Below are positions 1 to 52,313 of a stretch of DNA of 64,000 nucleotides, in pieces. Positions within the stretch are counted from its first letter, which is position 1, and each line of letters starts with the position of its first letter. A program made the position numbers and the translations under genes. Origin of the DNA: Beggiatoa leptomitoformis (lineage in GTDB: Bacteria; Pseudomonadota; Gammaproteobacteria; Beggiatoales; Beggiatoaceae); the NCBI RefSeq assembly GCF_001305575.3, contig NZ_CP012373.2:3048261-3112260 (forward strand), read 5' to 3'. The notes beneath the pieces were generated by a model that was not told the DNA's origin, searched no databases, and worked only from the letters and a program-made list of their open reading frames with translations.

Positions 1-1491
1 TTGAGAAACGGAATCATTATTCCGTAATACTTGTAAAGGTCTATAAATACCGTTGTTTGCTAATGTGGTATAGGCTTGTACTAGTTCAAATAAAGTGACT
101 GCACCATTACCCAATGCTAAGCCATCACCATAAAAATCTGTGTTAGCGGTTAAACTTTGCATTCCTAATTCATGCAGTTGCTTTAGAAAATTATTTGCAC
201 CAACAAATTGAACGGTTCGAATGGCGGGAATATTCAGCGAGTTTCCAAGCGCGTCACGCAGGCGTAATAAACCATAATGGCTACGGCTGTAGTTGCGGTA
301 ATTATGCAAGCCCGCACCAACAGATTCTGCTAAAGGGGAATCGTCGATTAATGTCGCGGCTGTCCATCCCTTTGCGAGTGCCATTGCATACAGTAGTGGT
401 TTGAGTGTCGAACCCGGTTGACGTGGGGTAATAACCGTATCGATGAAGCTGATAGGGACGTTAGGGGAAGAAATCCCGCTATTTACCCATGCTAATACGT
501 TTGCGGTTTGATTATCGACCACCAGCACTGCACCATTGCTAACCCTTTGTTTTTTTAGGTCACTTAATCGTTGGTCTAACAGTGTTTGAATGGATGTTTG
601 AATACTTGCATCAATCGTTGTATATAATCGCCCACGATTTTGCAGTTTATCAACGGGTTGGCTTGTATAAATATGTTGTACAAAATGGGGGGCTTGTATG
701 GGGAGGGGCGGTTGGTGTAATTCTAAAGGGGTTGCTAGTGCTGTTTGATATTCTATTTTGCTGATAATTCCTTGTTCTAGTAGGCGTTGTGCAAGTACTG
801 TTAAGGGTTTTTCAATCTCGCGCGTTCCTCTGCGCAAGTCTAAACGACTTGGTGAGCGAACCAGTACCGATAAGGCCATCATTTCCTTTAAATTGAGCGT
901 ATCTAAATCGCGGTCAAAATAATGTCGTGCCGCTTGTACCACTCCACGCCGTTGGCTGGCATAAGGAATTTGATTTAAGTAAAATTCTAAAATATCTGTT
1001 TTGCTAAATTGTTTTTCTAAATTTGCCGCTTCAAAGCCTTCTACCCAGCGTGACCAGAATGTTCGTGGTCGTGGGTGTAACATTCGCACAACTTGTTCGG
1101 TCATTGTGCTTGCGCCACGCACTACCCGTCCTAGTTTTAAATTTTGGGCGGTTGCATGCCACCGTGCTTGCCAATCCGCACCATGATGTTCATAAAAACG
1201 TTTGTCTTCTGAGAGGATAAAAATTTGTTGTAGTATTTGTGGGATTTTGTGTAGTGGAACAATATCGTTTAAATTCCAGTCGTTTTGATAGGTAATCACC
1301 AGCGGAACGCCATTTTTATCGAGTAATTGCACTTTACGCACATCTGCATTAGCCAGCGATAAAGAAGATGGAAATGGCTGTATTTCGTTGATAGTTAGCC
1401 ATGTTATGCTGATAACGATGAGTAAGCAGAAGAAAATAAAAAAACGAAAAGAACGACGGGTAAATAAGGTGTATAGGTGTGTGCTTAGCAT
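1..1491 (-). CDS. pbpC: Penicillin-binding protein 1C, N-terminal 497 residues (cut by window edge)
   Basis: Bifunctional peptidoglycan glycosyltransferase/transpeptidase-type protein of the inner membrane facing the periplasm. The reading frame opens at ATG 1491 and is still open at base 1. An N-terminal membrane anchor lies at about residues 12-30. The glycosyltransferase domain follows, with the catalytic Glu in EDKRFYEHHG (E95) and the GASTMTEQVVRM motif. The transpeptidase domain begins before the active-site STLK (S361, K364), with an SLN-type second motif in ALGNSLNIPAI. The KTG box and the C-terminal domain would lie outside the window. The order of glycosyltransferase then a short linker to STLK fits PBP1C better than PBP1A/B. 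No alpha-2-macroglobulin partner gene is visible, because its usual place is off the edge or absent. Confidence 0.9.
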   Translation of the reverse strand, partial: MLSTHLYTLFTRRSFRFFIFFCLLIVISITWLTINEIQPFPSSLSLANADVRKVQLLDKNGVPLVITYQNDWNLNDIVPLHKIPQILQQIFILSEDKRFYEHHGADWQARWHATAQNLKLGRVVRGASTMTEQVVRMLHPRPRTFWSRWVEGFEAANLEKQFSKTDILEFYLNQIPYASQRRGVVQAARHYFDRDLDTLNLKEMMALSVLVRSPSRLDLRRGTREIEKPLTVLAQRLLEQGIISKIEYQTALATPLELHQPPLPIQAPHFVQHIYTSQPVDKLQNRGRLYTTIDASIQTSIQTLLDQRLSDLKKQRVSNGAVLVVDNQTANVLAWVNSGISSPNVPISFIDTVITPRQPGSTLKPLLYAMALAKGWTAATLIDDSPLAESVGAGLHNYRNYSRSHYGLLRLRDALGNSLNIPAIRTVQFVGANNFLKQLHELGMQSLTANTDFYGDGLALGNGAVTLFELVQAYTTLANNGIYRPLQVLRNNDSVSQ

Positions 1492-1562
1492 GGTTAATTA
1501 GCGGGCGCGCGATTCGATTATCGATGAGTAACGAGAGTTTAGACGGTTTTTTGATTAAAGAT

Positions 1563-1664
1563 GGTCCGAATCAGCATTTTTAAAATTGACCAATACGGAA
1601 AGTATTCTTTTCGCGTTTTTGTAATTCGGTTAATTTTAAAAATGCCATAAATTCTGATTCAGTC
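1563..1664. repeat. Imperfect inverted repeat, MITE/REP-like
   Basis: The left arm (about 1563-1591) and the right arm (1627-1664) are near reverse complements, apart from an 11-base indel. Both contain a core related to CCGAATCA plus ATTTTTAAAATT. The same core, in the form ATCCGAATCAAAATTTTCAG, occurs at 35945-35964 inside another palindromic element, so this is probably a diverged member of a dispersed family. It lies between two minus-strand genes and may also act as an mRNA hairpin. It is the only content seen between 1492 and 1691. Confidence 0.5.
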
Positions 1665-1691
1665 AAAAAATAATGTATGACCTATTGAGTT

Positions 1692-3611
1692 TTATGCAGA
1701 TTGTCGATTTTGTACGACTTGCCATTTTTTATTTTTTAATAAATAGCCTTGTGTTTTGGTTTTGCCCTTTAAATCGAGTATTCCGCGACTGGTAAATAGG
1801 TATTCTTGACGCAGTAATTGATAAGTGGTTTCACTCACTTGGATACAACCTGCTAATCCTGTGGATTCCATTTGGCTGGCGATGTTTACCGTTTCGCCCC
1901 AAATATCATAATTAAACCGTTTTGTGCCTATCACGCCCGACACAACCGCACCTGTATGGATTCCAATGCGGACATCAAAATTTTCCCCAATCACGGCACG
2001 AAATTGGCGCACAGCATCCCGCATGTCTAACGCTATATCTGCAATGGCTTGTGCATGGTCACGACGAGTAGTCAACACGCCCCCTGCAACCATGTAGGCA
2101 TCACCAATCGTTTTAATTTTTTCTAAGCGATAGGCTTCGGCTAGTTTATCGAAAGTGTTAAAAATTTGATTGAGCAAATCGACAAATTCTTGCGGCGGCA
2201 GGCGATTGGTTAAATTAGTAAATCCAACCAAATCCGCAAATAGAATGGTGCTTTCTTCCACGTATTGGGCAACCGCTTGTTTGCCTGCTTTCACTTGATT
2301 AGCAATGGGGATGGGTAAAACGGTGGTTAGTAGGCGGTCAGTGAGTTGTTTTTCTTGGTGTAGTGTGTCTTCTAATTGTTTACATTCACTGATATTTTCT
2401 ACTGTTCCTTGATAATAAAGTAGGTCGCCATTGGTATCACGCACCGCGTGAATATTTTCTCTAATCCATGCGGTTGACCCGTCTTTGCGGTAAATCTGTG
2501 ATTCTATTTTTTCTGCACTGTTTTGTTTTTTCAGCAGATGAATAATATCACTAAGTTGTTCGGGCGCGACATAGCGTTGATAACCTTTACTAAAGGCGTG
2601 AATTAACGCTGTTGGTGAGTCAAAACCAAAAATACGTGCAAGAGCTGGATTAACCAGTAAATAACGTCCATCCCCCGTGCGTTGAAAAAAACCTTCTTGA
2701 CTGTGTTCAAACAATTGTTGGAATTGATGATGCGCTTGTTGCGCTCCGCGTTGATACGTGCGGAATTTAAAACTGGTAAAACTGATGACTATTAACAAAC
2801 TAGTCAGTAATAGCCCTGTAAAATAATATTGATAAGTTGTTACCCGTTCTCGAGCTTGTTGATAATAGTCACTATATGCCATAAACAAGGGTTCTGTATA
2901 ATAATCAGCGGGTAATGTGACTAATTCTTGTAGTTGAGCATCTAATGCGGGTTTATTCTCTAGTATCAGTTGTACCTGTTGGTGTAGGCGATTGACATCA
3001 TCCGCTGTACCTTGTGTCGTATCGTTAGTATGTGAATCTAGCAATAAACCTTCTAATTCGCCCATCGTACTTTCTACGGTATGTTTTAGGGCTTCATTTG
3101 GCGAATTATCGTAGCGCAACACATCGCGGAGCAATTGCTCTAAGCTTGCCGTGACTAACAGGGAGTTTTTGCGTTGGCTGAGTTTTAGCGTTAATTCGTT
3201 AATCAATGCGGGAAAGTAGGTAAATGAACTTTTATAGCTGGAATCTAGGGATTTAAAGCTTTCTAATAATTGTTTTTTTTGTTTAACGCTGGTTTGTTGC
3301 TCTTCTAAATGATGTGCTAATTGCATCGTTTCTGTTGCCGTTAGAAAATGCGGGAATTGTTTTAAATTTTCTAACAGCGTTAGCAGTATATTTAAAGATT
3401 TATTCAATTCATCATAATGATTAACCAAGCCATAACGCACTTTTAACACGTCCTGATTTAAGCTTGCATAACCTGCTTTAAGCAAGCGTGCATCATTGAT
3501 AAAACGTTCATGTTCTGTAAGGTTAATCGCTTGAATATTAAACCAGAAAAAGGCTAATAGGAATAATATTCCAACGGTAAAAACGGTGTTACGGACTAAT
3601 GCCAGTATCAT
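1692..3611 (-). CDS. Membrane adenylate cyclase with periplasmic DAHL-like sensor and PAS domain
   Basis: Class III nucleotide cyclase predicted to make cAMP from ATP. Order: membrane segment at about 8-28; an all-helical periplasmic region resembling the DAHL sensor domain at about 30-260; a second membrane segment at about 262-284; a PAS domain at about 295-410 with its PAC part; the cyclase domain at about 430-635. Metal-binding aspartates are D460 (ILFADLVGF) and D504 (TIGDAYM). Substrate selectors K498 and D569 (YDIWG) point to ATP rather than GTP. The transition-state Asn is N576, but the Arg expected four residues later is Gln (Q580, in NIASQME), which could lower activity. The start ATG overlaps the stop of the upstream cytochrome gene (ATGA type), so the two are translationally coupled. 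The DAHL assignment is from memory of the family. Confidence 0.85.
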   Translation of the reverse strand: MILALVRNTVFTVGILFLLAFFWFNIQAINLTEHERFINDARLLKAGYASLNQDVLKVRYGLVNHYDELNKSLNILLTLLENLKQFPHFLTATETMQLAHHLEEQQTSVKQKKQLLESFKSLDSSYKSSFTYFPALINELTLKLSQRKNSLLVTASLEQLLRDVLRYDNSPNEALKHTVESTMGELEGLLLDSHTNDTTQGTADDVNRLHQQVQLILENKPALDAQLQELVTLPADYYTEPLFMAYSDYYQQARERVTTYQYYFTGLLLTSLLIVISFTSFKFRTYQRGAQQAHHQFQQLFEHSQEGFFQRTGDGRYLLVNPALARIFGFDSPTALIHAFSKGYQRYVAPEQLSDIIHLLKKQNSAEKIESQIYRKDGSTAWIRENIHAVRDTNGDLLYYQGTVENISECKQLEDTLHQEKQLTDRLLTTVLPIPIANQVKAGKQAVAQYVEESTILFADLVGFTNLTNRLPPQEFVDLLNQIFNTFDKLAEAYRLEKIKTIGDAYMVAGGVLTTRRDHAQAIADIALDMRDAVRQFRAVIGENFDVRIGIHTGAVVSGVIGTKRFNYDIWGETVNIASQMESTGLAGCIQVSETTYQLLRQEYLFTSRGILDLKGKTKTQGYLLKNKKWQVVQNRQSA

Positions 3612-9783: not shown

Positions 9784-10983
9784 TTACCCCACCTTAACCA
9801 CGCCATTCACCGTTAAAGAAAGCGTTTCTAAACTTTCCAAGCCTTCATTATCCACAACTTTCACAGCGATGCAGTGATTCCCAGCATTAAACTTGTGGGT
9901 TTGCTTGCCTTCTTTATCAATCATCTCATCTGCTTTAAAGCCTGCTTCTGCTTCGTAAGAAAAATCCCAAGCATAAAACTCAATGCCTGCTTCGGATTCT
10001 CCCGTGGCAATGAATTCGATTTCTCGTAAGTTTTTCGCATCTAAACCCAAATCATTGAAGACTAGCGTTAGTTTTGGCTTTTTCGCGATGGGGACAAATT
10101 CCTCAACCGTGACCAGTTGAATAATTAAACCTTCTTGATTTTTCAGGCGTGCTACTTCTTGAATTGCGCCTTTACCAAAACTGAAGGCTATCAGCACACC
10201 GACGGGCTTTTGTTCTGCCTTGAGTCTGTCAAATAGATTTTTATCAAAGCGTTCACAGGCGGATTTAAAATTATCCACAACATTACGCCCCACATTGTCA
10301 GAGCGTTTGACTTGAATGGGAACGCCTTCTTTAGTCTTGCCATCTGTACCAGAATCACCGCGCTGTTTGGTGTTTGGCGTGCCGCCGTATTGTTTCACTA
10401 TCCAAGTTTCAAACTCGAAAGCATCTGAATAGCGCAGGGTGTCGTAATCGTATTTGTGCAAATGCAGTGAGAATGGTGCAGAAAATAAGTCTTTCTGTTT
10501 CTGCAAGCGCATTTCTGAGACTTTAACGGCTTGTACAGATTGGTCAATCCCAATCCATTGGCGTTTATGTTTATCTGCCACCGCTACCGTTGTGCCACCA
10601 CCTAAAAATGGGTCAAGAATCACGTCGCCTTCATTGCTTGCACACAATACGATCCTTTCAAGCAATGCTTCAGGTTTTTGTGTTGGATAGCCTATAGCCT
10701 CATTCCCTTTTATGGGGGGAATATCGTCAATGATTGATTGCTGAATTTTCCCTTCACTCAAACTTGAATAGTTTTTATATGAGGGCAGGCTACCTTTGTT
10801 CTTAGCATGAATAATAACTCCTTTTTCATCAAGAAAATCTAATATTTCCAGTAAGTTTAGTTCTGATGAAACGTTTAGCATACTTTTTAAATTATTAGGA
10901 ATAGCCCAATGTCGACCCTTTTCTGTCGGGTTATAGTCTTTCCAAATTTCACCAGAAAAACCATTACGAACACCCGCGCCTGT
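9784..10983 (-). pseudogene. DNA methyltransferase/nuclease fusion, 3' part (split by IS copy 1)
   Basis: Encodes residues 173-571 of a protein whose first 172 residues lie at 11837-12352. Removing the IS and one TA restores an uninterrupted frame of 572 codons. This part carries the beta-class methyltransferase SAM motif DPFLGGGTT (about residue 296), then a PD-(D/E)XK nuclease-like region with GDSGTDG and IQVKRSDN (D386, Q396-K398) as in Mrr-type restriction domains, and a C-terminal beta-rich Ig/PKD-like stretch (HKFNAGNHCIAVKVVDNE). A methylase and nuclease in one chain suggests a single-polypeptide restriction-modification enzyme. A 365-codon frame from ATG 10881 remains open, but it lacks the DPPF motif and is unlikely to be active. 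Confidence 0.85.
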
Positions 10984-10985
10984 TA

Positions 10986-11836
10986 GAGCGTGTCATCAAA
11001 TAGTAAAAAGTGTTATATTATAAATATATACCCAGATATCGCCAAGGATAAAACAATGAGTCGTCGCTATGCCTTAACCGATGAACAATGGTCAAAACTA
11101 GAACCGCTACTCCCTGGGCGTAAAGGACATGTCGGGATGACGGCTAAAGATAACCGCTTGTTTATTGATGCTGTTCTATTCCGTTATCGCAGTGGCATTC
11201 CTTGGCGCGACCTCCCCGAACGCTTTGGTGATTTCCGTGTCGTCCATACCCGCTTCAGTCGTTGGTCTAAAAAAGGTGTCTGGGAACGTGTTTTCAAGAT
11301 ACTAAGTGCCGATGCCGATAATGAATATGCCATGATAGACAGCACAATAGTTAGAGCGCATCAACATAGTAGTGGTGGTGGTGCAGATGAAGCCATTGGA
11401 CGTAGCGCAGGGGGTTTAAGTACCAAGATTAACTCCGTTGTTGACGCACTGGGCAATCCGACCCTTTTTTTTTGACTGCGGGACAGGCAAGCGACCTTGA
11501 AGGGGCTGATGCTCTTATTCCTCAGATAAAGGCAAACGCTTTATTGGCTGATAAGGCTTATGATGCTGATGAACGGGTTAGAGATGTTTTAAAACAGAAA
11601 AGCATAGAACCTGTGATTCCGTTCAGGAAAAATCGTTTAAATCCACCTGACTATGATAAAGTCCTTTATAAGGCACGTTATTTAATCGAGCATTTCTTCG
11701 GTAAATTAAAGCAATACCGCGCCATAGCTACACGATATGATAAACGCGCTAGGAATTTCTTAAGTGGGGTTTATTTGGCTTCTACCTTGATTCTTTTGGC
11801 TTGAACCTTTAACCCTTCTTATTTGATGACAGGCTC
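10986..11836 (+). mobile_element. IS5-family (IS427-like) insertion sequence, copy 1, 851 bp
   Basis: Ends are GAGCGTGTCATCAAATA on the left and the complement of GAGCCTGTCATCAAATA on the right. It is flanked by a TA duplication (10984-10985 and 11837-11838), as in the IS427 group. It carries a two-frame DDE transposase. Its predicted proteins are identical to those of copy 3 (21123-21973), which implies recent movement. Confidence 0.93.
11056..11804 (+). CDS. IS5/IS427-type transposase, two frames joined by -1 frameshift (copy 1)
   Basis: DDE transposase that cuts and pastes the 851-bp element. Frame A starts at ATG 11056, with AAGGA seven bases upstream, reads MSRRYALTDEQWSKLEPLLP and stops at 11475. 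Frame B runs to 11804. They meet at a run of nine T (CCCTTTTTTTTTGACTG), where a -1 slip would join NPTLFF to LTAGQASDL, a join that matches single-frame IS5 transposases. Catalytic residues: first Asp in MIDSTIVRAH (frame A), second Asp in LADKAYDAD and Glu in YLIEHFFGKL (frame B). A longer GTG start at 10990 lies inside the terminal repeat and is unlikely. Confidence 0.9.
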
Positions 11837-12352
11837 TAAGTCAGCACGTTTATATTTTCCGAACTCATCTTCATACTTAAACACTGCTGCATATTTATCT
11901 GAATATCCAACTTTAATTGAGTTAAAGTTATAATTGGATGTTTTAGAATAAAAATATATTGTGTCATGAATCTGTGGAAATCGTTTTGCCGAATTATGGC
12001 TAGAAGTTCTTTTCCATATAAGTTCACTGCGAAAGTTACTATCGTTGAAAACCTTGTCAAGTATCAGCACTCGAATGTAAGCATTTGCGTGGTCATCGCA
12101 ATGCAAGAAAATAGACCCTGTGGGCTTTAGAATGCGGTGCATTTCTTCAACACGTTCTTTTAACCAAGCAATGTAATGGTCAACACCGCCAGACCAGCGG
12201 TCTTCAAAGCTGCGGACTTCGCCCTTGTCGCCCCAGATAACTTCATAGTTACGATTAGAGAAAAACGGGGGGTCTAAATAGATTAAATCGACGGATTCGG
12301 ATTCAAGGCTTTTCAGAATTTCTAAATTGTCGCCTAGGATAAGTCTGTTCAT
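11837..12352 (-). pseudogene. DNA methyltransferase/nuclease fusion, 5' part
   Basis: The first 172 codons of the enzyme broken by IS copy 1. It holds the beta-class N4/N6 methyltransferase catalytic motif DPPF at residues 27-30, in VDLIYLDPPFFSNRNYE, and target-recognition sequence after it. The frame meets the IS at codon L172 (TTA, which includes the duplicated TA). Beyond it the reading frame runs only a few codons into the IS before a stop. The original start at ATG 12352 is intact, so a truncated catalytic fragment might still be made. Confidence 0.85.
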
Positions 12353-12541: not shown

Positions 12542-12560
12542 GTAAACCTTAATCTTCGGG

Positions 12561-12800
12561 TTAATCTGAGGGGCTTTTTTTCGTTCTGCGAGAGGTTTCG
12601 ATTTCTCGCAAGCTTTTCGCGATTGGGACAAATTTCTCAATATTAAAAATTGATATATTACAATCGGCTAGTTCATAACAATTACTTGTAGTAGCAGATA
12701 TAGAAGAAGATAACGCGCTACTTCCGTAAAAAGCTAAAAAGGGCTGTTCACACAGCCCTAACCACTCATTACAAAATCGATAATATTTTTTAGTGTCCTT
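12561..12800 (-). pseudogene. Relic of a gene related to the methyltransferase/nuclease fusion
   Basis: An open frame of 80 codons with no start, between stops at 12801-12803 and 12561-12563. Its end, IEKFVPIAKSLREIET, matches EEFVPIAKK...NLREIEF of the enzyme at 9784-10983 at near-identical DNA. The relic lacks 48 bases that in the other gene lie between two GCGAAA words, as expected for a slippage deletion. The upstream part (WLGLCEQPFLAFYG) has no counterpart that I recognise. A GGGCTGT/ACAGCCC hairpin lies at 12741-12758. Confidence 0.55.
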
Positions 12801-12869
12801 CTACTCATCTGCTGTTTTTTTCGATAAACCTTTTATTTTTTGACGCTGTCAAAATGATATTTGTGCATA

Positions 12870-12875
12870 TATAAT
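12870..12875 (+). promoter_or_regulatory. Candidate -10 box (TATAAT) of the RNA gene
   Basis: A perfect TATAAT hexamer lies seven to eight bases before the first stem of the candidate RNA. A TTGACG at 12840-12845 is too far upstream (24 bases) to be an ideal -35, and nothing closer matches well. Confidence 0.4.
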
Positions 12876-12877
12876 GA

Positions 12878-13035
12878 GACTATGAGACGCGATAGTCGGT
12901 GTCCCTTAATTGGGTAGCTCTCACGACACCACTTTAAAAGTGGTTTCCACCAAAGTGTGGTTATAATCAAGATGCCCGACAGCAAAATTAGAATTGTTTG
13001 GAGCTGGACGAACCCCCTAATTTAGGGGGTTTTTG
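12878..13035 (+). ncRNA. Candidate structured non-coding RNA, family not recognised
   Basis: No reading frame covers this stretch, but it is dense in complementary arms. They include GACTAT (12878-12883) with ATAGTC (12892-12897), GGTGTC (12898-12903) with GACACC (12925-12930), ACTT with AAGT around 12931-12941, CCAC with GTGG around 12948-12960, and a strong terminator (ACCCCCTAA/TTTAGGGGGT then T-run) at 13011-13035. Alternative long-range pairing of GTCGG (12896-12900) with CCGAC (about 12976-12980) is possible. A TATAAT lies just upstream. It does not look like 6S, SRP, tmRNA, RNase P or a common riboswitch to me. Neighbours are restriction-gene relics and a small orphan protein on the other strand. 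Confidence 0.5.
13011..13035 (+). terminator. Rho-independent terminator of the candidate RNA
   Basis: ACCCCCTAA / TTTAGGGGGT stem followed by TTTTT. Confidence 0.8.
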
Positions 13036-13198
13036 CTTTGTATAGTTTTTATTTTAAATATTTTGATAGCAATATACAAAACTTAGTGGAACTACCTCTA
13101 ACATCATTGGGACGGTTTGTACGAAAATGAGCACTACGTACCCACAATTCTAGGGAAGGATTTCTATTAGATTTATAATCCAGTTTCATACAAATATA

Positions 13199-13585
13199 CT
13201 AACCATCATGCCCACCCTGATTACTGGATTGTTCCTGTCTATAGATAATTTCATGGGAATTTCCTTGTAAACACCCCTTGTAATTCAATCCTCTTATAAT
13301 ATCAGGAAGAGATTTTGAAAACTCCCAACGTTTAGGGCAAAAGACACGCTCTTCCTTTGTACCATCCTTTCTTGTTTCTATACGAAATACAGGCTCTTTT
13401 CCACCGTCTTCTTGTTTTTTTGTATAACAGTGATATGAAAACTCGACCCTTACGTCTATATTTTTTATTTCATTGTCTAGTTTTACCTCAAAACTGGTTT
13501 GAAACCCTTTAAGGTGAGATATGTCATACTCTTCACCTGTATCTGGATTTACCCACTTTCTACCTTCTTCACTTTTTTTATGCAC
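13199..13585 (-). CDS. Small conserved-looking hypothetical protein
   Basis: A 128-residue soluble protein, probably from GTG 13585 (GTG CAT AAA). The N terminus GRKWVNPDTGEEYDISHLKG, a middle VEFSYHCYTKK and the later ERVFCPKRWEFSKSLPDII recall small accessory proteins labelled in some genomes as stationary-phase growth adaptation proteins. That is a recollection, and no biochemical role can be inferred. Three cysteines and one CPKRW motif are the most distinctive points. It begins about ten bases after the stop of an older relic frame, so it may once have been the second gene of a pair. The C-terminal QEQSSNQGGHDG tail looks disordered. Confidence 0.55.
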   Translation of the reverse strand: MHKKSEEGRKWVNPDTGEEYDISHLKGFQTSFEVKLDNEIKNIDVRVEFSYHCYTKKQEDGGKEPVFRIETRKDGTKEERVFCPKRWEFSKSLPDIIRGLNYKGCLQGNSHEIIYRQEQSSNQGGHDG

Positions 13586-14355: not shown

Positions 14356-16026
14356 ATGTCCACTGTCAATCAGTCTATTTTTTTGGATAGAAAAGTTTTT
14401 TATACTGTTATATTGATTAGTTTTATCGTAGTAATAGCTGTTCTTAAACTTACCCCTTTTGGTGCAGCTTCTACAACGGATTCTTTTACTTATATCGAAG
14501 CTGCCGAAAATTTTAAACAGGGTAAGGGGGTAATATTAGATAGTTATGCAATGGGTCAAGAAGGGGAAGCTGTGCCTTTTACAACGTGGCCGCCTTTATA
14601 TCCGATGGTTATTGCCGCTTTTCTTGCCGATAATACGCTTCCTTTTTACAGTGTTGCTCAATTGTCATTACTTCTTTTGTTAATCAGTGTATTGAGTTTT
14701 TTCTTTTTAATTAAAAAAGTTGCGGGGTATCCATTAGCCATCATTGGAGCGACTGTATTTTTAACCGCTAGTTCAACGGTTTTAATTTTTACCTACGCAT
14801 GGAGTGAAACTTTATTCACGGCTTTATTGATTTTGGCTTGTTGGAGTTTGGTTTATTGCATAGAGGCGGCGCAAAAAGAGGCGGTTTTAGCACATTTGGG
14901 ATATTTGTGTTTGTTAACCTTGTGCGTACTCGGCTTGTTTTACACCCGTTATGCGGGATTGTGGTTAGGGGTGTTAATCCCTGCGACATGGTTAGTCTTA
15001 CCTAATAAAGGTAAGTGGTTTACAGCTTATTTTGTAGCGAGTGTCGTTTATGCAGGATTTGTTGGTTATTTGTTGTGGCGCAATTATTTACTGGTAGGAG
15101 ATATATCAGGCGGGGAATTTAACAGCGAATACAATGAACCCCTGCGAATTGCAATACGCCCTATTTCCACAACCAGTTTTTTGGATAGGGTGATAGAAAT
15201 GCAGAATGCACTTTTAGCGTTATTACCCGTTAATACGTCTATTATTTTTCTTGTGTTACTCTTTTGTCTTGCTGGCATGAGTGCCTTTTTAACATGGCGA
15301 TTCAGTACGGTCTCGTTAATAAATAATGAAGCGGTCGCCTATTATGGAAAAAAGCTTATTTTTATTAGTTTTCTGGGGATTGTGTCTTATATTGGTGGAT
15401 TTATTTATATGGGACTTGTCAAAAGTCTTCCTACTTACGAATTGCGTTATATAGGCTTATTAACGCCGCTATTCGTCATTATTTTACTCTTTAGCCTAGC
15501 GTATGCTTGCCAAGCACAGAATAGGGTGATTGGTATGATAACAACGGGGTTAGTCAGTTTCTTGATGATAAGTATGATATTTCAGGGGGGAATATATTAT
15601 AAAAATGCGATTGTTCATTGGAATACGCAGCCATTGATGCTTTATCCAACGGATGTAACAGAGAAAGACTATTTTTTCAATGGAACATTACCCCTTGAAA
15701 TAAATTCACATTACAAACTTTTACAGCAAATTTCCAAGCAAAGCGTAGATTCTCCTTTATTCTTTGTCGAACGACCGCGTTTCATTCGGTTATCGGCCAT
15801 TTACCCAGCGGTAAAACTCTTTCCTATCGAGATTAATGATTACACTATTAATCAGTTGAATCATTATACGGATAAATCTGCTTATATCCTGTTATTCGCA
15901 CAAACGGAAATTCAGAAGTTAGAGAAGTATTACGGTACAGAAAAATTCATACAATTACCCTATAACAAAGATTATTTTGAAAAAATTGGCGTTTTTCTGT
16001 TGCCATTACCATTGCCATTGCGTTAG
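14356..16026 (+). CDS. GT39/ArnT-like polytopic membrane glycosyltransferase
   Basis: A 556-residue protein with about ten to twelve hydrophobic segments, the first at about 15-33. The first extracytoplasmic loop carries an acidic motif (TTDSFTYIEAA, D42) followed by PFTTWPPLYP, as in GT-C enzymes of the dolichyl-phosphate mannosyltransferase/ArnT kind. These transfer a sugar from a polyprenyl-phosphate donor to a lipid or protein acceptor on the periplasmic side. The C-terminal third is a soluble domain. Acceptor and sugar cannot be inferred. It follows the PilZ gene closely, and a hairpin downstream (16038-16057) probably ends the transcript. Confidence 0.72.
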   Translation: MSTVNQSIFLDRKVFYTVILISFIVVIAVLKLTPFGAASTTDSFTYIEAAENFKQGKGVILDSYAMGQEGEAVPFTTWPPLYPMVIAAFLADNTLPFYSVAQLSLLLLLISVLSFFFLIKKVAGYPLAIIGATVFLTASSTVLIFTYAWSETLFTALLILACWSLVYCIEAAQKEAVLAHLGYLCLLTLCVLGLFYTRYAGLWLGVLIPATWLVLPNKGKWFTAYFVASVVYAGFVGYLLWRNYLLVGDISGGEFNSEYNEPLRIAIRPISTTSFLDRVIEMQNALLALLPVNTSIIFLVLLFCLAGMSAFLTWRFSTVSLINNEAVAYYGKKLIFISFLGIVSYIGGFIYMGLVKSLPTYELRYIGLLTPLFVIILLFSLAYACQAQNRVIGMITTGLVSFLMISMIFQGGIYYKNAIVHWNTQPLMLYPTDVTEKDYFFNGTLPLEINSHYKLLQQISKQSVDSPLFFVERPRFIRLSAIYPAVKLFPIEINDYTINQLNHYTDKSAYILLFAQTEIQKLEKYYGTEKFIQLPYNKDYFEKIGVFLLPLPLPLR

Positions 16027-19900: not shown

Positions 19901-20751
19901 GAGCCTGTCATCAAATAAGAAGGGTTAAAGGTTCAAGCTAAAAGAATCAAGGTAGAAGCCAAATAAACCCCACTTAAGAAATTCCTAGCGCGTTTATCAT
20001 ATCGTGTAGCTATTGCACGATATTGCTTTAATTTACCAAAGAAATGCTCGATTAAATAACGTGCCTTATAAAGAGCTTTATCATAATCAGGTGGATTTAA
20101 ACGATTTTTCCTGAACGGAATCACAGGTTCTATGCCTTGCTGTTTTAAAACATCTCTAACCCGTTCATCTGCATCATAAGCCTTATCAGCCAATAAAGCG
20201 TTTGCCTTTATCTGAGGAATAAGAGCATCAGCCCCTTCAAGGTCGCTTGCCTGTCCCGCAGTCAAAAAAAAAGGGTCGGATTGCCCAGTGCGTCAACAAC
20301 GGAGTTAATCTTGGTACTTAAACCCCCTGCGCTACGTCCAATGGCTTCATCTGCGCCACCACCACTACTATGTTGATGCGCTCTAACTATTGTGCTGTCT
20401 ATCATGGCATATTCATTATCGGCATCGGCACTTAGTATCTTGAAAACACGTTCCCAGACACCTTTCTTAGACCAACGACTGAAGCGGGTATGGACGACAC
20501 GGAAATCACCAAAGCGTTCGGGGAGGTCGCGCCAAGGAATGCCACTGCGATAACGGAATAGAACAGCATCAATAAACAAGCGGTTATCTTTAGCCGTCAT
20601 CCCGACATGTCCTTTACGCCCAGGGAGTAGCGGTTCTAGTTTTGACCATTGTTCATCGGTTAAGGCATAGCGACGACTCATTGTTTTATCCTTGGCGATA
20701 TCTGGGTATATGATTATAATATAACATTTTTTACTATTTGATGACACGCCC
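19901..20751 (-). mobile_element. IS5-family (IS427-like) insertion sequence, copy 2, 851 bp
   Basis: Same length and organisation as copies 1 and 3 but inverted, flanked by TA (19899-19900 and 20752-20753). One end reads GGGCGTGTC instead of GAGCGTGTC, and the transposase differs at a few residues (N12 to I, KS to QG, V to A), so this is an older or separate lineage. It interrupts the antitoxin-like gene near its 3' end. Confidence 0.93.
19933..20681 (-). CDS. IS5/IS427-type transposase, two frames (copy 2)
   Basis: Frame A starts at ATG 20681 and ends at 20262; frame B ends at 19933. The nine-T slip site is intact, and the first Asp, second Asp and Glu are all present. It differs from copies 1 and 3 in frame B at KQQGIEP and DKALYK, changes unlikely to inactivate it. 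Confidence 0.9.
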
Positions 20752-50609: not shown

Positions 50610-52313
50610 TTAAAATAAAAAGTACCGTTGTGCCAATGGCAAGACTTCAGCGGGTTTGCAGGTTAGCAATTCCCCATCGGCACGGACTTGGTAAGTTTGT
50701 GCATTGACTTCAATCAGCGGTTGATAATGGTTATGAATCATATTGGCTTTGCTAATGGTGCGACAATTTTCTACCGCAACTAAACGTTTGTTTAAGCCTA
50801 TGTGTCGACCAATGTCTTGTTGTAATGCTGCTTGGGAAACAAAGGTTACGGAGGTTGCATGTCGCGCTCCACCTAACGCACCAAACATGTAGCGATAATG
50901 CACAGGTTGTGGGGTAGGGATGGAAGCATTGGGGTCGCCCATGTGTGCGGCAACAATAGCACCGCCTTTGAGTATCATAGCAGGTTTAACCCCAAAAAAT
51001 GCGGGTTTCCATAAAACTAAATCGGCTAGCTTTCCCACTTCTATTGAGCCAACTTCGTGAGCAATACCTTGTGCTATCGCAGGATTTATTGTGTATTTGG
51101 CTATATAGCGTTTAACGCGGAAATTATCATGTAAGCTATTATCTTCTGCTAAATTACCGCGTTGTACCTTCATTTTATGTGCCGTTTGCCATGTACGGGT
51201 AATCACTTCACCGACGCGACCCATTGCTTGTGAATCGGAGGAAATCATCGAAAACGCGCCTAAATCGTGCAAAATATCTTCCGCAGCGATGGTTTCACGC
51301 CGAATGCGTGATTCTGCAAATGCAACATCTTCGGGAATTGCAGGGTCTAAATGGTGGCAAACCATGAGCATATCTAAATGCTCGTCTATTGTGTTGATAG
51401 TATAAGGACGGGTTGGATTGGTTGAGGAGGGTAAAACGTTTTTTTGTCCACAAAGTTTAATAATATCAGGTGCATGTCCGCCACCTGCACCTTCGGTATG
51501 GTAGGCATGAATCACCCGATGTTTAAACGCCGCAATGGTATCTTCCACAAAGCCCGATTCGTTCAAGGTATCCGTATGAATTGCTACTTGAATATCATAT
51601 TCTTCTGCCACGTCTAGGCAGTTATCAATGGCTGCGGGTGTTGTTCCCCAGTCTTCATGCAGTTTTAGACCCATTGCACCCGCTTCAACCTGTTCGCGCA
51701 ACGGGTCGGGTAAACTGGCGTTACCTTTACCTAAAAAGCCAATATTCATTGGTAACGCATCAGACGCTTGCAACATGCGGTGAATATGCCATACACCTGA
51801 TGTACACGTGGTTGCATTTGTTCCCGCCGCAGGACCTGTGCCACCGCCTATCATTGTCGTGATGCCTGACATAATCGCATCATCAATCTGTTGTGGACAA
51901 ATAAAATGAATATGGGAGTCAATTCCACCAGCCGTTACAATTAATCCTTCACCTGCAATTACTTCTGTTCCCGCGCCTAAAATAATATCAACGGATGGCT
52001 GTATATCAGGATTACCCGCTTTACCAATCGCATAAATCCGCCCATTTTTTAACCCAATATCGGCTTTAATAATGCCCCAGTAGTCAATAATCAGGGCATT
52101 AGTAATCACTGTGTCAACAACATCAGCACTGCTCGCTTGTCCTTGTCCCATGCCGTCACGAATAACTTTACCGCCACCAAATTTAACTTCTTCCCCATAA
52201 ATCGTGCGGTCAGCCTCGACTTGAATCCATAATTCTGTATCGGCTAAACGAATTCTATCGCCAACAGTTGCACCATACATTTCTGCATAAGCACGCCGTG
52301 AAATGGTAGCCAC
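50610..52313 (-). CDS. ureC: Urease subunit alpha
   Basis: 567 residues, GTG start 52313 overlapping the ureB stop (TAGTG). All nickel and catalytic residues fall at the standard positions: H134, H136, carbamylated K217, H246, H272, C319, H320, D360. Hydrolyses urea to ammonia and CO2 in the cytoplasm. Nickel loading requires UreD/E/F/G, none of which are in this window. Confidence 0.97.

Follow-up and report, generated by a model that had tools for sequence, protein, structure and literature searches.

What is the element that lies between a broken DNA methylase gene and an HtrC-like gene in Beggiatoa leptomitoformis, and with which RNAs should it be grouped? The window analysed here is a stretch of 64,000 nt, part of a single 4.27-Mb contig; the genome from which it comes is labelled G000 in our comparisons. 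An initial annotation, made from the letters alone, had proposed a structured RNA at this place, and this proposal is borne out: positions 12882-13036(+) are a free-standing small-RNA gene with a promoter, a pseudoknotted core and a terminator, and it has covarying homologues. We have very little doubt that both the gene and its RNA family are real. The features are compiled in Table 1.

Table 1. Features of the RNA gene and the gene facing it (positions within the window)
Feature	Position	Strand	Evidence or remark
Palindrome TTTTGAC-GCT-GTCAAAA, perfect, over the -35	12838..12854	.	TTGAC-N6-GTCAA also precedes the RNA in 4 further loci
-35-like hexamer CTGTCA	12846..12851	+	18 nt upstream of TATAAT
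-10 hexamer TATAAT	12870..12875	+	near the start of P0
Small RNA gene (sroH-like, HtrC-associated RNA)	12882..13036	+	covariance model R1 and homologues
P0, 5' arm, one bulge	12883..12890	+	descriptor, 0 of 150 shuffles as good in the window; homologous P0 covaries
P1, 5' arm, inside the P0 loop (pseudoknot)	12895..12899	+	2 of 5 P1 pairs altered on both sides
P2 hairpin (GUCC/GGGU)	12901..12915	+	covaries in type-2 members
P0, 3' arm	12917..12923	+	descriptor; covariation in homologues
P3 hairpin	12928..12944	+	2 of 6 pairs altered on both sides; pairing in 100% of cells
P4 hairpin	12947..12960	+	3 of 7 pairs altered on both sides; pairing in 82.1% of cells
Conserved segment AUA..CAAG before the P1 3' arm	12963..12971	+	invariant columns, alignment A5 (5 sequences)
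P1, 3' arm	12976..12980	+	as for the P1 5' arm
Intrinsic terminator	13010..13032	+	10-bp stem and T tail; also present in the three homologues of alignment A4
HtrC/YjaZ-family gene, convergent with the RNA	13049..13585	-	in-frame TAG at 13199-13201; frame runs on to TAA at 13049-13051

The perfect -10 box noticed in the initial annotation is present, and together with the -35-like hexamer it matches the consensus at 10 of 12 positions. Promoter-like sites are not commoner in this region than expected by chance (12 found, 13.7 expected), therefore the promoter of the window RNA rests on its position and conservation and not on the scan. The strong terminator had been recognized correctly as well, and so had the lack of a reading frame: the ORF scan of the window returned no frame of at least 60 aa with a start codon that overlaps the RNA. 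When the 156 nt are folded alone, z is -2.11 and 6 of 200 shuffles are as good. With the terminator taken away the values are z -0.41 and 60 of 200, and three homologues without their terminators (z -1.23, -0.54 and -0.13) fold no better than shuffled sequences. The several stems claimed for this stretch are within the range of chance in a single sequence and become significant by the comparison of homologues; the argument that stems kept in decaying DNA imply function is insufficient by itself.

No Rfam family reaches its gathering threshold at 12882-13036, and the weak matches at E ≤ 10, a rimP leader (0.053), PyrR (0.16-0.42) and the RAGATH-1 hammerhead (0.17), lie far below their gathering scores and were rejected. 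At the DNA level G000 contains one full copy, and close homologues in 57 genomes, phages and plasmids amounted to short pieces covering 16-59 query bases. On a Spongiibacter plasmid a 17-nt near-match is located downstream of an HtrC-like gene (44.9% identity) and on the opposite strand, and the stretch around it can be read as a complete homologue of the RNA, terminator included (fold z -3.86 with the terminator kept). Next to it, at L031:3392-3502(-), a tRNA-like match carries some 40 additional bases in its anticodon region. An Ahniella plasmid gave a weak blastn match (E 6) to the Spongiibacter RNA, which was accepted because it is situated beside the plasmid's relative of the HtrC-like gene and can be read as a full RNA. 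A pattern scan over the contigs of 84,980 species yielded a single stretch, which belongs to Microbulbifer and likewise stands tail-to-tail with a gene of this protein family. In viral sequences 41 plus 3 stretches matched the patterns, none of which continued as the RNA when inspected by eye, and the long pattern had no match.

The window RNA and these three, the W-type members, form alignment A4, in which P1, P2, P3, P4 and the terminator were scored. Standard pairs fill 92.4% of the 118 cells, compared with 36.8-53.4% in slid controls. The changes between homologues keep the stems, as the covariance check suggested in the initial annotation would have it: 9 of 31 pairs are altered on both sides, and compensatory changes occur in four of the five scored helices. 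The covariation score of 0.355 was reached by none of 500 column shuffles (slid versions, 0.048-0.161). Four of the five measures were reached by 0 or 1 of 500 shuffles and the fifth, 'further pair types', by 67. P2 is invariant in the four members and hence uninformative here, and P0 was left unscored because the position of its bulge moves. The single-sequence z of -0.41 would fit chance stems next to a terminator in decaying DNA; against four covarying homologues and a covariance model with further matches, this explanation is hardly credible.

This covariance model, R1, was built from A4. It scores the window RNA, one of its own training members, with 119.7 bits (12881-13036). At E ≤ 0.01 it detects the RNA in at least 5 of 369 genomes of the class, own genome included; as nine candidates were scored per genome, this is a lower bound. 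At E ≤ 0.1 there are 3 of 42 genomes of the family, again with our own. Five of the six other R1 loci (L090, L092, L093, L094 and L095, the last being identical in place with L036) have an HtrC-like gene adjoining tail-to-tail; the sixth, L091:1501-1622, is a family RNA in a genome without any HtrC match, that is, an orphan. Among 14 plasmid loci, R1 recognizes L101 strongly (8.3e-7) and L032 moderately (5.5e-4), both at the expected place, and it does not find sroH or the IncN-type RNAs. As three of the four training members had been detected by way of the protein, the model owes something to it, whereas no protein entered into the search itself.

P0 was located with a helix-order descriptor in the window, Spongiibacter and Ahniella sequences. 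Since its loop contains the 5' arm of P1, the two helices form a pseudoknot. Comparative support for P0 comes from the nine members of a type-2 set (alignment A9), in which P0 and P2 were scored: 10 of 11 pairs are altered on both sides and 91.8% of cells are paired, slid versions reaching 24.5-45.5%. For P0 by itself these values are 6 of 6 pairs and 94.4%, a count favoured by keeping out L119 and L092, where P0 could not be placed by eye; L090 was kept in despite its poorly fitting P0. 'Further pair types' was reached by 143 of 500 shuffles. For the descriptor test, 38 loci were reduced to 33, plus the window, by leaving out the duplicates L109-L112 and L117, for which the script found no terminator. 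The order P0-P1-P2-P0'-P3-P1' followed by a terminator is satisfied by the window RNA, and for the window, a Serratia plasmid (L032) and an sroH member (L100) none of 150 shuffles was as good. Two more sroH members, L104 and L122, were equalled by 2 and 6 of 150, respectively. Over the 34 loci the combined Fisher value is 1e-8, with related loci counted apart although not all are independent; 7 loci beat all shuffles and 9 score zero, including L088, one of the members used for training, while elsewhere the best solution sometimes falls away from the RNA. Two further elements, a short hairpin before P1' (P5) and a lengthening of P1 by GUC/GAC, were rejected for too-short loops or broken pairs.

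The ORF at 13199-13585 on the minus strand has plasmid relatives in 184 records at E ≤ 1, and HtrC-family relatives occur in 661 plasmid records at E ≤ 0.001, where some are called 'heat-shock protein' and some 'stationary phase growth adaptation protein'. From seven HtrC relatives, E. coli excluded, we built a profile (A8). Five of the seven match the NCBIfam family HtrC/YjaZ (NF007263, 'stationary phase growth adaptation protein'), the best at 2.5e-19. The window copy, which has the internal stop, obtains 19.7 bits (E 0.00067) and L088 12.8 bits, both far below the curated cut-off of 324 bits. Among 14 control genomes E. coli matches this family, likewise below the cut-off. In the other direction, A8 matches YjaZ of E. 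coli H7 at E 2e-24. Judged by these profile comparisons, the protein family facing the window RNA includes E. coli YjaZ/HtrC. Pfam gave no match for the window or the Spongiibacter copy and PADLOC none for the window copy. StbC of IncW plasmids was considered as a name for the protein and dropped. For the minus-strand pseudogene upstream no plasmid match was found.

The protein was found in 6 of 369 genomes of the class and 8 of 398 of the phylum, own genome included in both. Without G000, the remaining 368 class genomes contain the RNA in 4 cases (DNA-only search), the protein in 5 and both, adjacent to each other, in 3 (hypergeometric 4.8e-6). This linkage holds over RNA subtypes which share little sequence, and one of the plasmid loci is situated among phage tail genes. 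Reading of the loci revealed no recognizable RNA downstream of the HtrC gene in L103 and L118, and in L034, L038, L085, L119, L120, L121 and L123 an RNA could not be placed with confidence beside it.

The connection to a known RNA came from the downstream stretches of 14 plasmid HtrC copies, which were read by eye. Those of L097, L100 and L104 are Rfam sroH (RF00372), L100 with 144.3 bits; comparable layouts built from different sequences are seen in L087, L099 and L102, which form one group, and in L098 and L105, which form another. In E. coli H7, sroH (1472-1632(+), 201.1 bits) faces yjaZ (1634-2173(-)) and ends 1 nt from the yjaZ stop codon, with thiH and rpoC as the outer neighbours of the pair. 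A match to the sroH query exists in 3714 of 5426 E. coli genomes, the neighbourhood having been read in one of them. sroH and the window RNA have in common the convergent position to an HtrC/YjaZ gene, the terminator, a length of about 150-160 nt and, by the same descriptor, the order of P0, P1, P2 and P3. They differ in sequence: RF00372 is absent among the matches of the window RNA at E ≤ 10, and shared ancestry is therefore derived from place, partner and architecture. On this basis the window RNA probably belongs with sroH, and we infer a common ancestry of the two; our conclusion is that it is a subtype, divergent in sequence, of a class of sroH-like RNAs associated with HtrC. The statement in the initial annotation that no known RNA matched is true as regards Rfam models. 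Relatives do exist in E. coli sroH and the plasmid RNAs, recognizable by partner, orientation and helix order.

sroH itself was reportedly described about 2003. In its Rfam consensus the terminator hairpin alone is marked, and P0 and P1 are invariant over 6 aligned sroH rows, which makes these rows uninformative on covariation of the two helices. Within the open-licence literature of PMC we found no paper that treats sroH together with htrC. One study calls SroH under-characterised, with one confirmed target, kbl (PMC6172242); in another it appears in a phenotype table (PMC4606813), and in a third it shows the lowest conservation among 34 expressed sRNAs with orthologues in both E. coli and K. 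pneumoniae (PMC3415461).

Of 19 hand-located members of the class, 10 have a best promoter-like site that stops 7-9 nt short of P0, and in the other 9 it is 25-47 nt upstream. The motif TTGAC-N3 or N6-GTCAA precedes the RNA in 5 of 35 loci; 236,625 scanned bases contain 6 matches in total, those included. This suggests that the palindrome may be a repressor site, possibly an operator shared by some members.

What could the pair be doing? Two HtrC relatives with a mutual identity of 22% were modelled with AlphaFold2 (mean pLDDT 69.1 and 64.9, pTM 0.68 and 0.61). Foldseek against solved structures gave no match at E ≤ 0.001 for model 1. With VIA-align its top 13 rows are all toxin-antitoxin entries (Z 6.0-3.6), 11 named HigB, RelE, YoeB or ParE and 2 titled 'Toxin-Antitoxin module', the best being 8a0x_C (Z 6.0, rmsd 5.5, 99 aligned). 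For model 2 the best entry is 7vd7_A (Z 4.8, rmsd 3.3, 83 aligned), and its top 20 (Z 4.8-3.7) are toxin-antitoxin or ribonuclease-toxin structures, mostly with names of the RelE, HigB, YoeB or ParE kind. The two exceptions are a conserved hypothetical protein and a Cami1-ribosome entry, Cami1 being an effector with a RelE domain. All Z values are below 8, a range where a shared arrangement may be due to chance, and both models used three-sequence alignments of the same three sequences, so that the comparison is a lead only. As a best guess from the models, the HtrC-type protein may be an RNase of RelE/HigB-like fold. A ToxN-type fold was not recognized in the fold-search lists, which is no evidence against one.

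This lead, the plasmid setting and the knotted RNA are the reasons why we rank first, tentatively, an RNA-controlled pair resembling toxin-antitoxin systems; we infer that the RNA and HtrC products act jointly. The locus is a two-gene convergent module in which an RNA gene of about 155 nt faces an HtrC-family gene. The 5' part of the RNA folds into a nested pseudoknot, with P0 closed round the 5' arm of P1, the hairpins P2, P3 and P4, and a terminator at the end. The knotted RNA would bind the HtrC-type protein and keep it inhibited, as an RNA antitoxin does a protein toxin, and the pair might help plasmids and other mobile DNA to persist. Having each to follow a protein of its own, the RNAs would diverge fast. 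An interrupted protein gene beside an intact RNA, as in this genome, would be expected if such a pair loses its protein first. A bolder version, to which we give somewhat less credence, makes sroH and the window RNA subtypes of one diverse mobile class of pseudoknotted antitoxins that neutralise cognate RelE-fold HtrC RNases encoded tail-to-tail, one copy having become settled on the chromosome of many E. coli.

Several observations do not favour a toxin. yjaZ of E. coli H7 is annotated as a heat-shock protein, and htrC is said to be needed at high temperature, its loss being linked to heat sensitivity and not to relief from a toxin. With the type III RNAs ToxI, CptI and TenpI the RNAs of this class share the pseudoknot and the place beside a small protein gene on plasmids. 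Known type III loci are same-strand repeat arrays ahead of the toxin, whereas we found one full, convergent copy with a longer unit, and a protein without a recognized toxin family; single copy and convergence count against the antitoxin reading.

Other functions have to be weighed on the same data. A trans-acting regulatory sRNA with mRNA targets of its own, merely travelling with HtrC, is on the unlikely side: sroH has been studied as an sRNA with kbl as confirmed target (PMC6172242), but the linkage to HtrC persists across subtypes of little shared sequence, mainly helices are conserved where a base-pairing seed would be expected, and sroH ranks last in conservation among the 34 shared sRNAs (PMC3415461). 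That the 3' ends nearly meet, the window RNA ending at 13036 before the stop codon at 13049-13051 and sroH at 1632 before the yjaZ end at 1634, and that the terminator stem is palindromic, would agree with an RNA that regulates the HtrC gene in cis as an antisense or provides it with a shared terminator. RNA and coding sequence overlap neither in the window nor in E. coli H7, though, and a covarying pseudoknot 5' of the terminator would be superfluous for antisense action or termination; we regard this role as quite unlikely. The same linkage and structure, together with the plasmid contexts including the one among phage tail genes, could also be explained by an RNA that does not inhibit HtrC but acts as its cofactor, the two forming a ribonucleoprotein for defence or stress in which the RNA is scaffold, guide or substrate. 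This seems improbable to a similar degree, for a guide-like conserved part is absent, the linker before the terminator varying among homologues in length and sequence, and the window copy has no PADLOC match.

HDV-like ribozymes have nested pseudoknot helices in the order found here, P0a-P1a-P2-P0b-P3/P4-P1b. Nevertheless a self-cleaving ribozyme is very improbable: cmscan at E ≤ 10 lists no HDV family for the window RNA or sroH, the window RNA has an extra hairpin and a longer joining segment before the 3' arm of P1, and a promoter-like site immediately before P0, as in the 10 members mentioned above, leaves little to be cleaved off.

If the RNA-controlled toxin-antitoxin-like pair is real, it would be a new, convergent kind of such systems. 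Seen as the RNA partner in a widespread pair with a protein, the orphan E. coli sRNA sroH gains a structural model beyond its terminator. The pair also suggests a reason for the poor sequence conservation of sroH and turns its function into a direct question: does it bind and inhibit YjaZ/HtrC?

The initial annotation had described the surroundings of the RNA as decayed, which holds in part. An IS4/5-type transposase (10990-11804) divides the DNA methylase gene (9784-12352, minus) into two pieces, and the HtrC-like gene contains the TAG. The frame of the transposase is itself broken into two overlapping ORFs where a long run of T occurs, much like a programmed frameshift, and a nearly identical 110-aa second half is found at 19933-20265(-). 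Between methylase and RNA there are two further terminator-like hairpins, at 12553-12572(+) and 12740-12759(-). The 556-aa ORF at 14356-16026(+) reads like a membrane protein and has no Pfam match. Elsewhere in the window, at 51878-52160(+), Rfam assigns the 5' ureB sRNA family, which is known from Helicobacter (88.6 bits, E 1.3e-21); here the model may be catching the ureB coding sequence.
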